Below the pieces are notes generated by a model. It had not been told where the DNA came from, did no database searches, and saw nothing but the letters and a program-made list of their open reading frames with translations. DNA of 47,492 nt from Ruminococcus flavefaciens (lineage in GTDB: Bacteria > Bacillota > Clostridia > Oscillospirales > Ruminococcaceae). A program made the position numbers and the translations under genes. The stretch covers positions 1-47,492 of the forward strand of contig CACYSQ010000016.1 of NCBI GenBank assembly GCA_902777125.1, given 5' to 3'. Positions 4,660 through 25,696 of the stretch are shown here, in pieces (position 1 is the first letter of the stretch; every line of letters begins with the position of its first letter).

Positions 4660-4687
4660 GCTACAGCATTAGAAAGGATAATTGGCA

Positions 4688-5749
4688 ATGGGTATAATCA
4701 TAGCACTTCTGATATTCGGTCTTATCGTGACCGTCCATGAGTTCGGACACTTCATTGTCGCCAAGCTCAGCGGTATAAAGGTGCTGGAATTCTCGATAGG
4801 AATGGGGCCTAAGATAGTTCAGCGCAAATGGGGCGAGACCATGTACTCGCTGCGCTGGATACCAATGGGCGGCTACTGTGCAATGGAGGACGAGGACAAG
4901 GAATCGGACGATCCAAGGGGCTTCCGTAACGCAAAGCTTTGGAAAAGAGCGCTCGTTCTCTTTGCGGGACCCTTCATGAACTTTGTTCTCGGCTTCCTCC
5001 TGCTCATAGGAATGGTCTGCATGGCAGAGGGCGGTGTCGCGTCCACTAAGGTTGCCGGTTTTTACGGAAAGACCGAGGATAACGGCGAGATAACCTACTA
5101 CTCGAAGAGCTATGAATCGGGTCTGAGGCACGGCGACCGCTTCGTTGAGGTGGACGATATCCACATTTTCAGCTACCTCGACCTCAGCTACATCTTCTCA
5201 ACGACCAAGACACATACCCACGATGTGACAGTAATCCGTGACGGCAAAAAAATAGAGCTTGAAGATGTCGAGTTCCGTGATATCCGTGATAATGACATGG
5301 TCGATTTCGGACTTGTGTACAGAGACAAAAACCCGCTTACGGTCCTCAAAGGCTCGTCCGAGCTCTTCATGTCAATGGGACACATGGTCGGTATGTCGCT
5401 GAAGCAGCTCGCTACCGGAAAGGCTGACAAGGAGGAGGTCTCCGGACCTGTCGGTGTAGTATCGACTATCAGTGAGGCGACCGAAAAGAGTGAGGACAAA
5501 AAGGACGCACTTTTCCAGCTCTTCTATATGTCCGCCCTCATAAGCATAAACGTCGGAATATTCAATCTTCTACCGATACCAGGTCTCGACGGCGGAAGAC
5601 TTCTCTTCTGCCTTATCGAGCTTATCCGACGCAAGCCGGTAAAGCCTGAGCACGAGGGCTACGTTCACCTCGCCGGCATCGCCCTGCTTATCGGACTGAT
5701 GCTGCTCGTGACCTACAACGATATCGTAAGACTTATAACAGGAGGCTAA
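4688..5749 (+). CDS. rseP: RseP-type site-2 zinc metalloprotease (M50)
   Basis: An intramembrane protease that cleaves single-pass membrane proteins such as anti-sigma factors and remnant signal peptides. The 353-residue protein has HEFGH at residues 17-21 in its first membrane segment (zinc ligands and catalytic Glu), a following FAGPFMNFVLG segment, a central PDZ-like region (about 110-190) and the second active-site motif NLLPIPGLDGGRL near residue 300, then two hydrophobic stretches. ATG 4688 fits the AAAGGA at 4672-4677 (ten bases); TTG 4682 is the alternative. It is an obvious candidate to process the putative anti-sigma protein at 23936-25696, but that link is inference. Confidence 0.94.
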   Translation: MGIIIALLIFGLIVTVHEFGHFIVAKLSGIKVLEFSIGMGPKIVQRKWGETMYSLRWIPMGGYCAMEDEDKESDDPRGFRNAKLWKRALVLFAGPFMNFVLGFLLLIGMVCMAEGGVASTKVAGFYGKTEDNGEITYYSKSYESGLRHGDRFVEVDDIHIFSYLDLSYIFSTTKTHTHDVTVIRDGKKIELEDVEFRDIRDNDMVDFGLVYRDKNPLTVLKGSSELFMSMGHMVGMSLKQLATGKADKEEVSGPVGVVSTISEATEKSEDKKDALFQLFYMSALISINVGIFNLLPIPGLDGGRLLFCLIELIRRKPVKPEHEGYVHLAGIALLIGLMLLVTYNDIVRLITGG

Positions 5750-23266: not shown

Positions 23267-23302
23267 CTTAAAATAAAAAAATAATTCTTCCGGTGCTGCA
23301 TT

Positions 23303-23330
23303 TTGGCTCTCAGAATGCAATGTATATAGT
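23303..23330 (+). promoter_or_regulatory. Candidate promoter of the ECF sigma gene
   Basis: TTGGCT (23303-23308) is 16 bp from TATAGT (23325-23330). The hexamers are moderate; an ECF-type autoregulated promoter cannot be excluded. The cre-like palindrome begins on the last base of the -10 element. Confidence 0.45.
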
Positions 23331-23343
23331 GAAAACGTTTTCA
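23330..23343. promoter_or_regulatory. cre-like palindrome (CcpA/LacI-family operator candidate)
   Basis: TGAAAACGTTTTCA is a perfect 14-bp palindrome and fits the catabolite-response element consensus TGWAARCGYTWWCA at every position. It lies between the candidate -10 and the ribosome site of the sigma gene, the position expected for repression by roadblock or promoter occlusion. Whether CcpA or another LacI-family protein binds is inference. Confidence 0.7.
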
Positions 23344-23358: not shown

Positions 23359-23922
23359 ATGACACACAGCGAATACAGGGACAGTCTGAAAAAGGACCGT
23401 CAGGCTGCTCAGCGGAGGCTTTTTGACGTCTACCTCAACTATGTCTACACGGTAGTCTACAGCCGTCTGAGGAGCTGCGGAAGCCGTGAGGACATTGACG
23501 AATGCGTCAGCGATGTTTTTGCTGAGGTCTTTTCCTCATACGACGATACCGCGGCGGTATCAGGCGATATGAAGGGCTTTATCGGCACGGTTGCTGCGAG
23601 AAGAGCCGCCCTGTTCTACCGCAGACTATCCCGTGTCAACAGCGAGGTACGGCTCGATGATGAGCTTTCGGAGGCTGTCAAAGCCGACGATGACGTTTCC
23701 TCCGAGGCTGAAAAGAACGAGCAGCGGCGAGCTCTGCTTGAAGCTGTCGAAAGTCTCGGCGAGCCGGATTCCGTGATAATCATGCAGAAGTATTTCTACA
23801 GACGCAGATCGTCGGAAATAGCAAAAGCCGTTCACTTGTCACCGGCAATGGTGAGGGTAAGGAGCAGCCGTGCGCTGAAAAAGCTGAGAAAGCTTCTCGA
23901 AGAAAAGGATATTTCACTGTAA
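23359..23922 (+). CDS. ECF-type RNA polymerase sigma factor
   Basis: The 187-residue protein has sigma region 2 (about 22-95: RLFDVYLNYVYTVVYSRLR, EDIDECVSDVFAEVF, MKGFIGTVAARRAALFYRR). A short acidic linker follows, then sigma region 4 with a helix-turn-helix (about 130-180: RRRSSEIAKAVHLSPAMVRVRSSRALKKLRKLL). It lacks regions 1 and 3, as ECF factors do. ATG 23359 follows GGAGGGAGGG. The gene downstream starts 13 bases after its stop and encodes a membrane protein with an anti-sigma layout, so the pair is expected to sense an envelope signal and redirect RNA polymerase. The ECF group cannot be named from the sequence alone. Confidence 0.9.
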   Translation: MTHSEYRDSLKKDRQAAQRRLFDVYLNYVYTVVYSRLRSCGSREDIDECVSDVFAEVFSSYDDTAAVSGDMKGFIGTVAARRAALFYRRLSRVNSEVRLDDELSEAVKADDDVSSEAEKNEQRRALLEAVESLGEPDSVIIMQKYFYRRRSSEIAKAVHLSPAMVRVRSSRALKKLRKLLEEKDISL

Positions 23923-23935
23923 AGGAGAGAGCACT

Positions 23936-25696
23936 ATGAAGAGACCTGATCTAAAAATACTGGAAAACGCTGACAAGGAAACGATAGAGAAAATGTCAGA
24001 GCGTTACTGCAACGTAGACGAAAAGGAAGCTGAAAAAATATACCGCCGGAGCATCGAAAAATGTACCGGCATCATTGAGGAAGATGCTGCCGAAACAATC
24101 AGCGGAGTTGAAGTTATAACAAGGCGCAGACGTTCAGTGGCTGTCCGCGTAGCTGCTGCTGCCGCTGCGGTGGCGGTGTGCGTTACCGGAACTGTTTACG
24201 CTATAGGCAGGACAAAGTTCAAGCCAGAAAAGGAAACTCTTGCGACATCGGACGAAGCTCCTGCACTGTTGGATAATACTGCCTCTGCAACAGAAGGCAC
24301 TGTGCCTGACACCAAGGGAGAAGCTCCTGACAATGAGGTCAACGAGTACCTGAAATGCTGGAAGCCCTTTGAGCTCGACGGCTGGACTTTCAGGGTAGAT
24401 ATGCTCCATATCACAAAAAGCAGCCGCGGAATGACATTCCGGCAGAATGAGTATTATCCCTGCGACGAGAAAGGCGTTTTCACCTGCGATCAATCCTACA
24501 TCGTTGCGGACATGACTGTCACCAACAACAGCGGTGAGGACAGGGAATACTACACCAATTCCTCTGCATTCTACTGCTTTGACAGGAGAGAGGACGGCAG
24601 TATCAACTGGGAAACGGCTGTCTGTGCGGACGTCTACGATTTCAACGGCGAAAAATCCGTTCAGGACGCTGACTTTTTCAGGACAACTATCAAAGCCGGC
24701 GAGACGAAATACTTCCGCATCGGCTACAGGATTGCGGACAGTGAACTCGACCGAAAATTCGACTATGTCTGCATCGACTTCGGAACCTACCTCGTTGACA
24801 GTGACCCTGATAAAGGCAAAATGGCTGTTGGCGGCAATATGAAGCTCAGCGAGATACCGCCGATAAAAGAGTACGATATGTCCACTCAGGAGGGCGTCTA
24901 CTACAAGATGCTCAACAGCGTCAAGTATTTCAGCAGAGCACAGGGAGCATATATCGTCAACGACGGTCTCGGCAACAAGCTGCATATTGATTTCTGGACA
25001 GATTTCCCCTCATCAAAGGCTATAACAATGATAAACAACTGCAATATAGATATCGTGAAATGGGAAGACGACAGCAAACCGGAGGTCAATGATGCAAGCA
25101 TTCCCGGAGTGCCTGTAGATTATACGAATGACGATACAAAGCCAAATGTTATCAATTTGGAGATACTTGATAAGGAGCGTACGGTTTATTACAGTGACGG
25201 AATCAAGATATATAATTATAGATACGAAGATGAAGCTCTTGTTGAAAACAAAATAAGCGGATCTTCTCACAGGTGGGAGAGCTATAGTGACGCTCCTGAT
25301 GAAAGCAGGCATTATGTGATCGATGGCATCGACAACTGGAAATATGTGAATGATTACACAAATCTTGTCTATGCGAGAACTTACCTTTCCCCGCAGGAAA
25401 TGACATACGGCTATCTTACCGATTTCAGCAATTGGGAAATTGTCGGAACAGAGAGCTATAACGAAAGAGAGTGCATGGTCATACGCGGAAAAATCAGCGG
25501 TGAATACAGCCAGAAGCATAATGTGACGGATTTCACTTTCTTCGTTGACAAGGAGACCGGAGTTCTGCTGAGATATATCGGCAGAGACGCAAACGGCGAA
25601 ATATCGGAGAGTGTTATGTGCCGCTTTATAGCCTTTGACGATAAGGCTGCTGAGGGATATGACTTCTCACCGGAAACCGGAGCCCGTGCATATTGA
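23936..25696 (+). CDS. Membrane-anchored putative anti-sigma protein with two external domains
   Basis: The 586-residue product has a charged cytoplasmic N-terminal part (1-64, helical, ending RRRR), one membrane segment rich in Ala/Val (about 67-91), a Ser/Thr/Glu-rich linker to about 135 and a large exterior. The first external part (about 140-305) looks like a beta-sandwich of DUF4352 type (VADMTVTNNSGEDREYY, TIKAGETKYFRIGYRI). The second (about 320-586) has strand patterns such as NWEIVGTESYNERECMVIRG and DFTFFVDKETGVLLRYIG that recall the RseB/MucB-LolA fold. The 5' partner is an ECF sigma gene, 13 bases away. The anti-sigma role and the fold names are inferences; no recognised ZAS zinc motif is visible in the N-terminal part. 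Ribosome site GGAGAG. Confidence 0.75.
   Translation: MKRPDLKILENADKETIEKMSERYCNVDEKEAEKIYRRSIEKCTGIIEEDAAETISGVEVITRRRRSVAVRVAAAAAAVAVCVTGTVYAIGRTKFKPEKETLATSDEAPALLDNTASATEGTVPDTKGEAPDNEVNEYLKCWKPFELDGWTFRVDMLHITKSSRGMTFRQNEYYPCDEKGVFTCDQSYIVADMTVTNNSGEDREYYTNSSAFYCFDRREDGSINWETAVCADVYDFNGEKSVQDADFFRTTIKAGETKYFRIGYRIADSELDRKFDYVCIDFGTYLVDSDPDKGKMAVGGNMKLSEIPPIKEYDMSTQEGVYYKMLNSVKYFSRAQGAYIVNDGLGNKLHIDFWTDFPSSKAITMINNCNIDIVKWEDDSKPEVNDASIPGVPVDYTNDDTKPNVINLEILDKERTVYYSDGIKIYNYRYEDEALVENKISGSSHRWESYSDAPDESRHYVIDGIDNWKYVNDYTNLVYARTYLSPQEMTYGYLTDFSNWEIVGTESYNERECMVIRGKISGEYSQKHNVTDFTFFVDKETGVLLRYIGRDANGEISESVMCRFIAFDDKAAEGYDFSPETGARAY

Follow-up and report, generated by a model that had tools for sequence, protein, structure and literature searches.

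Proteobacteria make RseB as a protein of its own, which shields RseA and docks onto it through its small domain. The class I anti-sigma domain comprises four helices, of which helices 1–3 form a bundle, and the published dual interface between ECF and anti-sigma factors places the first helix on sigma4 and the last on sigma2, also in the two-helix class II protein CnrY, in the passages of PMC7406223 drawn on here. In Acetivibrio (Clostridium) thermocellum and its kin, SigI-RsgI suites number 7–14 pairs per species, and the portion of PMC11557425 cited here presents a dedicated RsgI suite as used only by Acetivibrio-type cellulosome bacteria. ECF262, which has a Ruminococcus albus example, stands among the non-canonical groups in the table consulted from PMC8999054.

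Our study examined a window of 47,492 nt, the whole stretch of Ruminococcus flavefaciens DNA that was analysed, in which an ECF sigma factor gene is followed by the gene for a membrane protein. We consider it likely that the two form an autoregulated cassette, in which a single-pass anti-sigma factor clasps its sigma factor, carries a built-in RseB-like sensor and releases the sigma factor upon proteolysis. The pair belongs to a family, of which no description was found in the open-access literature searched.

The sigma factor gene and its membrane partner

The sigma ORF matched the curated TIGR02937 model (sigma70-ECF; E 2.4e-20, 72.8 bits against a cut-off of 42.9) and Pfam Sigma70_r4_2 (3.3e-7), with Sigma70_r2 slightly under its Pfam threshold (21.6 bits, cut-off 24), and it comprises regions 2 and 4 but lacks region 3, as ECF factors do. 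A purine-rich ribosome site precedes its ATG at 23359, and an alternative GTG at 23329, in frame with this ATG, would give a product 10 codons longer. The partner ORF (23936–25696, 586 aa) begins 13 nt past the sigma stop. The two genes are an isolated pair amid housekeeping genes, with hisE, hisI and cytidine deaminase on the 5' side and aroA and aroC on the 3' side (Pfam); the his, aro and cytidine deaminase genes of the window were unmatched at 1e-5 in 13 relative loci. The features of the locus are collected in the table.

Table. Features of the sigma/partner locus, in positions of the window
Feature	Position	Strand	Basis
Predicted ECF-type promoter of the sigma gene	23294..23336	+	two-block family motif, window score 25.5
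Promoter -35, TGCTGCATTTT	23294-23304	+	
Promoter -10 region, GCAATGTATATA	23317-23328	+	
Initiation-region element, GTGAAAAC	23329-23336	+	
Perfect 14-bp palindrome TGAAAACGTTTTCA at predicted transcription start	23330..23343	.	sequence
Sigma factor of ECF type, 187 aa, with only regions 2 and 4	23359..23922	+	TIGR02937, Pfam, family alignment
Partner: cytosolic N-terminus, residues 1-66, two-helix, probably sigma-binding	23936..24133	+	family alignment, AF2, inter-protein couplings
Partner: single Ala-rich transmembrane helix, residues 67-92	24134..24211	+	AF2 helix, sequence
Partner: extracellular stalk, about residues 93-135, probably disordered	24212..24340	+	pLDDT < 50 over 92-140
Partner: beta-sandwich of YjhA type, residues 138-299	24347..24832	+	
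Partner: RseB/LolA-like domain, residues 317-580, equivalent to large domain of RseB	24884..25675	+	

At the cytosolic end of the partner, AlphaFold2 (AF2) modelled helices at residues 14–23 and 29–44, plus a four-residue turn, and gave low confidence to residues 45–66. The juxtamembrane family motif SGVExYxRPxW is degenerate in this protein (SGVEVITRRRR). The HxxxCxxC zinc motif was absent from the first 95 residues of all 197 paired family members, the window partner included. No Pfam match to RsgI or SigI was obtained for the window pair at E ≤ 1, and the probable sigma-binding part gave no above-cut-off match to Pfam or NCBIfam anti-sigma models in the scans made. An earlier note, made from the letters of the window, had described a sigma gene followed 13 bases on by a 586-residue protein with a single membrane segment and the rest outside, and had seen no zinc-binding (ZAS) motif. 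This description was borne out by the ORFs, by TIGR02937 and Pfam, by the modelled helix with residues 93–586 outside and by the family-wide absence of the zinc motif.

The note had further proposed a DUF4352-type sandwich followed by an RseB/MucB- or LolA-like domain. Both were supported as folds: the outer part of the partner has the DUF4352/YjhA-type sandwich and the large LolA-fold domain of RseB/MucB. The corresponding Pfam models, however, did not rise above cut-off in the window protein, neither PF11611 (DUF4352) nor PF03888 (MucB_RseB), the latter also having no match in its genome at 1e-3. PF03888 matched weakly in 7 of 23 relatives (best E 0.0012), DUF5027 gave a sub-threshold Pfam match in the window protein (E 2.6e-4), and a phmmer search against PDB sequences returned an unrelated best match at E 0.056. 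The structural matches to RseB end at RseB residues 204–207 and at model residues 580–581 of a 586-residue protein, which leaves no room for the small C-terminal RseB domain, and this domain is not present after the large one. RseB and MucB are also separate secreted proteins, whereas here one ORF with a membrane helix encodes the whole. It is possible, if doubtful, that the ectodomain is itself a carrier of lipids or lipoproteins, similar to LolA or LprG, and that the tether reports its occupancy without RseB-style shielding. We favour the RseB-like domain as a sensor built into the anti-sigma chain, which would shield that chain from proteolysis.

The RseP homologue that the note had placed in the window is present as an M50 protease ORF at 4682–5749 (Pfam E 1.8e-62). 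It sits within a uppS-cdsA-dxr-rseP-ispG cluster, and this gene order is commonplace. Because the gene is a member of a housekeeping cluster, finding it in the window cannot be counted as evidence of cleavage of the partner, although the protease may act on the partner, as the note had suggested.

A Ruminococcus family and its outer domains

A whole-protein search of 60 genomes gave matches in 27, all of them Ruminococcus, and a profile of the N-terminus matched 123 of 125 Ruminococcus genomes at E ≤ 1e-3, the number of matches per genome ranging from 1 to 29 when up to 33 candidates were scored in each; genomes with matches only around 1e-4 may represent chance matches. An order-wide sample gave N-terminal matches in 47 of 197 genomes, two of them Ruminococcus. 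Beyond the genus, almost all of these matches were weak, with E values of 3.8e-6 or worse, and fell for the most part on the membrane portion of the profile, the clear case being a genome with a match at E 2.3e-18 and a family sigma gene upstream (G314). Among the best 80 of 531 relatives in a sigma-profile scan of named genomes, most bore the name Ruminococcus or R. flavefaciens, while for some the title gave only higher taxa. The genome of the window itself held 14 N-terminal matches, of which 11 were checked as pairs with a family sigma gene upstream, window included, and one (L206) has a distant sigma factor. The window cassette is one of at least 11 in its genome. A scan of genome contigs with the whole partner found no relative.

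Of 199 distinct proteins scoring >50 bits with the N-terminal profile, a count that excludes weaker matches (L206, L211), 197 had a family sigma gene directly upstream, two lay at sequence edges and none was unpaired. The sigma–partner spacing was −8 to +20 nt in 170 of the 197 pairs, and 196 of the paired sigma factors scored >150 bits. The 80 loci that came from the sigma search are biased towards pairing, and further loci were chosen by the partner.

The cytosolic end and the membrane helix are common to the family and the outer domains differ. Our Pfam scan covered 98 of the 107 complete members (among 112) and matched 18 families at 0.01: PASTA in six members, Big_14 in four and the SecDF head in three, with two members each for two solute-binding models, DUF4367 and an IseA-type inhibitor. 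Weak matches in two members each were to DUF5027, PliI, LolA_like and a mucin model, and MucB_RseB, DUF4352 (at 3.5e-4) and five other families were matched by single members. No carbohydrate-binding module was among the 18 families in these 98 members; the solute-binding ectodomains may bind sugars. Ten proteins of the window's own genome included one solute-binding (E 1.1e-11) and one IseA-like ectodomain (E 4e-7), with eight giving no match at 0.01.

The RseB-like domain was found in 38 of the 197 paired members and the sandwich in five, and the window protein was the only one to join the two domains in series. Two members (L033, L067) have two RseB-like copies each, and the nearest sandwich relatives, L039 and L163 (311 aa), are without an RseB-like domain. 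By genome, the RseB-like profile matched 73 of 125 Ruminococcus genomes and 6 of 343 in a class sample, the window's own genome among the six, and the sandwich profile matched 8 of 125 Ruminococcus genomes, one of them weakly and with an internal stop. Three RseB-like proteins of 324–330 aa (L043:4945-5916, L047:1405-2394, L060:3810-4784) did not match the profile of the sigma-binding N-terminus and are possible free sensors. The RseB-like domain and the sandwich were also seen on proteins beside more distant ECF-type sigma factors (L207:5324-6547, L211:2362-4128), which suggests exchange of ectodomains between ECF groups.

Fusion of an anti-sigma factor with an RseB-like domain was also looked for beyond the family. 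PF03888 matched 52 of 249 genomes of a phylum sample, and in five of 20 loci fetched from these matches (L324, L328, L329, L331, L333) an ECF-like sigma gene, scoring 19–33 bits with the family profile, lay directly upstream of a fused membrane protein of 496–521 aa with its membrane segment before the RseB-like domain. One locus of the class sample (L307) has the same fused arrangement (558 aa; RseB-like profile match E 3.5e-5). Four further loci of the 20 (L314–L316, L323) have a sigma gene, a gap of about 525–625 nt and then an RseB-like protein whose domain lies close to the N-terminus, and in the other 11 a sigma gene occupied neither position within the stretch examined. Fused and separate designs are thus both found in the phylum, and what the earlier note had regarded as an unusual design recurs. 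The fusion it had proposed exists, but is no one-off, given the family members counted above and the six loci of other genomes, which rule out uniqueness.

Taken together, these computations suggest that the larger finding is a genus-wide expansion of putative sigma/anti-sigma cassettes, which would share their clamp and promoter and differ in an exchangeable outer sensor.

Predicted promoter elements and probable sigma binding

Of 115 distinct family sigma genes, 90 were preceded by a two-block motif of the form TGTTACACTTT-N18-nATATAATGAAAGC, compared to 2–4 of 115 in shuffles that were scored with the matrix fitted to the real sequences, without refitting. The gap was 18 nt in 70 of the 90. 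Across 196 sigma genes, the promoter score exceeded 8 in 145, of which 124 had the 18-nt gap. The position profile of the spacer has a conserved tail, CGAATA, which we take to fit an ECF -10. Within 1.007 Mb of loci, in which some places occur in overlapping copies, 102 promoter matches exceeded 12 bits; 13 matches of >13 bits lay away from family sigma genes, two of them >20 bits, and block-shuffled sequence gave none >10. Two matches that do not precede a family sigma gene, L128:2250 (+) at 30.0 bits and L100:1874 (−) at 20.9 bits, mark candidate regulon members. In the window's own genome (2.62 Mb), a degenerate pattern allowing up to three mismatches had four matches, three of them at family sigma genes (that of the window and two paralogues) and a fourth elsewhere, and the reversed control had none. 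The fourth (G000:C19:2665-2704, L202) lies about 400 nt upstream of an ORF that is PfkB-like by its translation.

Covariation between promoters and sigma factors was quantified over the 124 promoters. With sigma2 controlled for, distance in the -35 tracked sigma4 (partial r 0.294, p 0.002), and it tracked sigma2 more weakly with sigma4 controlled for (0.093, p 0.026). For the -10, the partial correlation was higher with sigma2 (0.231, sigma4 controlled for) than with sigma4 (0.156, sigma2 controlled for), each at p 0.002. This covariation suggests autoregulation, as it is the trace expected of sigma factors that read their own promoters, with a contribution from gene-linked descent.

An unlikely alternative to autoregulation is that a housekeeping sigma factor reads the promoter and a shared repressor binds at the start site. 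In its favour are a TATATA-like stretch past the predicted -10 and the perfect palindrome at the predicted start, whose sequence differs among some relatives (L041, L039, L031, L082) with palindromy kept. Against this stand the TGTTACACTTT form of the -35 with its prevailing fixed gap, and the separate covariation of the -35 with sigma4 and the -10 with sigma2, and we retain the autoregulated cassette as the preferred reading.

Two other roles for elements at the start site were considered and rejected. The palindrome TGAAAACGTTTTCA is, as we read it, cre-like, and was the basis for proposing a gene-specific catabolite operator; the idea was dropped because several relatives hold different palindromes, such as TGAATGCATTCA and TGAAAATGCATTTTCA, at the same place inside the shared promoter. 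The conserved RTGAAAGC element, which covers window positions 23329–23336 at the predicted start of the family sigma genes, offers ATG, GTG or TTG in 134 of 145 cases. It was rejected as the true sigma start codon because it falls in all three frames with respect to the sigma start, with 36 in frame and 49 and 60 in the two other frames.

Binding of the sigma factor by the partner was examined by mean-field direct coupling over the 196 pairs with a sigma score >150 bits (effective number 139 at 80 % identity). The mean z of the ten strongest couplings was 5.99 in real pairs, whereas none of 20 random pairings exceeded 2.38, and 20 of the 25 strongest inter-protein couplings fell in residues 1–46, although these account for 46 of the 101 columns (p 4.6e-4, binomial). 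Among the coupled positions are sigma residues 18, 58 and 128 and partner residues 40, 36 and 19. Among the top 50, couplings of helix 1 (6–24) with sigma4 and helix 2 (25–46) with sigma2 numbered 25, against seven crossed (Fisher p 0.002). Concordant and crossed couplings numbered 4–10 and 4–11 in ten random pairings, and 11–20 and 5–14 in ten within-clade shuffles, one of which (19:5) was better than the data. Within-clade shuffles, with clades cut at distance 0.40, also gave top couplings of 6.5–8.3 compared to 7.6 for the real pairs, and placed 64–92 % of the top 25 in residues 1–46 compared to 80 %. Coupling strength is in part ancestry. The pattern predicted from these alignments is that of the published anti-sigma binding mode.

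Furthermore, a model of the L041 sigma factor read through into the N-terminus, built on an alignment that also held 27 further chains of this read-through kind together with the sigma of the window, reached a pTM of 0.74 with ordered helices. The blocks holding the two helices had mean pLDDT values of 84, 91, 94 and 74, compared to 57–79 for residues 1–40 in the partner-alone model, a rise that is no more than suggestive, since the two models were built from different alignments. Foldseek returned nothing for the sigma plus N-terminus model at E ≤ 0.001, the best matches being sigma factors at 8.4e-3, and among the chains listed none was aligned past residue 191. The pairing, the coevolution and this model support the earlier note's proposal of an anti-sigma role, and the N-terminus probably binds the sigma factor. 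That the partner instead activates or delivers the sigma factor, or inhibits it with relief by conformational change and without proteolysis, is improbable. ECF anti-sigma factors are described as inhibiting through just such a coupling of two helices to regions 2 and 4, and in alignments over both domains the modelled sigma is nearer to anti-sigma-bound sigma factors (rmsd 9.8–14.1, still poor) than to RNA-polymerase-bound ones (22.8–26.9).

In the autoregulated cassette that we propose, two short cytosolic helices would clasp the sigma factor, the first contacting region 4 and the second region 2, and bar it from RNA polymerase. Further along this chain, a flexible stalk would bear the YjhA-type sandwich and the RseB-like domain with its LolA fold, and a lipid- or lipoprotein-like envelope ligand in the RseB-like domain would expose the stalk to a site-1 protease. 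A general M50 protease would then cut within the membrane, and the freed sigma factor would transcribe its own operon and a putative regulon.

Comparison with described systems

A wider reading, which we put forward tentatively, is that Ruminococcus has evolved a receptor platform of up to 29 autoregulated ECF cassettes per genome (as profile matches), in which the same two-helix clamp and membrane helix carry an exchangeable ectodomain (RseB-like, YjhA-type, solute-binding, PASTA, SecDF-head or IseA-like). Such a platform could fill the role of the RsgI suite of other cellulosome bacteria, largely by reading the state of the envelope. If this is true, a major fibre-degrading genus of the gut and rumen senses its surroundings via a large sigma-factor family. 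The natural swaps of ectodomain on one clamp and helix would offer a ready-made experiment on the transmembrane signal that releases a sigma factor, and the window protein a test of RseB-type sensing with the sensor built into the anti-sigma chain.

SigV-RsiV and SigP-RsiP of Bacillus differ from the window partner in ectodomain and N-terminus; to our knowledge they do not form families with dozens of paralogues per genome, and CnrY is without ectodomains of the kind seen here. As far as the descriptions drawn on here go, these Bacillus pairs are similar to the window pair in having an anti-sigma factor with an extracellular part and activation by its proteolysis. CnrH-CnrY of Cupriavidus has two cytosolic helices, the first directed to sigma4 and the second to sigma2 in the part of PMC7406223 cited, and the predicted helices and couplings of the present study agree with such an arrangement. 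The SigI-RsgI system of Acetivibrio (Clostridium) thermocellum shares with the family its many paralogous pairs of sigma factor and membrane anti-sigma factor with differing ectodomains; in contrast, the window family uses an ECF sigma factor, has no RsgI match and has no carbohydrate-binding module in the 98 members scanned.

The six fused loci elsewhere, examined as single loci, are like the window in having an ECF-like sigma gene directly upstream of a protein of 496–558 aa, with one predicted membrane segment starting near residues 68–95 and an RseB-like match from about 141–161; the N-termini of L324, L328, L329 and L333 do not match the family profile. The loci with a gap between the sigma gene and an RseB-like gene (L314–L316, L323) resemble the order rpoE-rseA-rseB, the RseB-like protein being secreted. 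RpoE-RseA-RseB of E. coli and AlgU-MucA-MucB of Pseudomonas share with the window an ECF sigma factor, a membrane anti-sigma factor (a probable one in the window), an outer RseB fold and an encoded M50 protease. The window differs from both in that the sensor and the putative anti-sigma factor are one chain holding the large RseB domain only, with a two-helix cytosolic region, an additional YjhA-type sandwich and a Gram-positive host.
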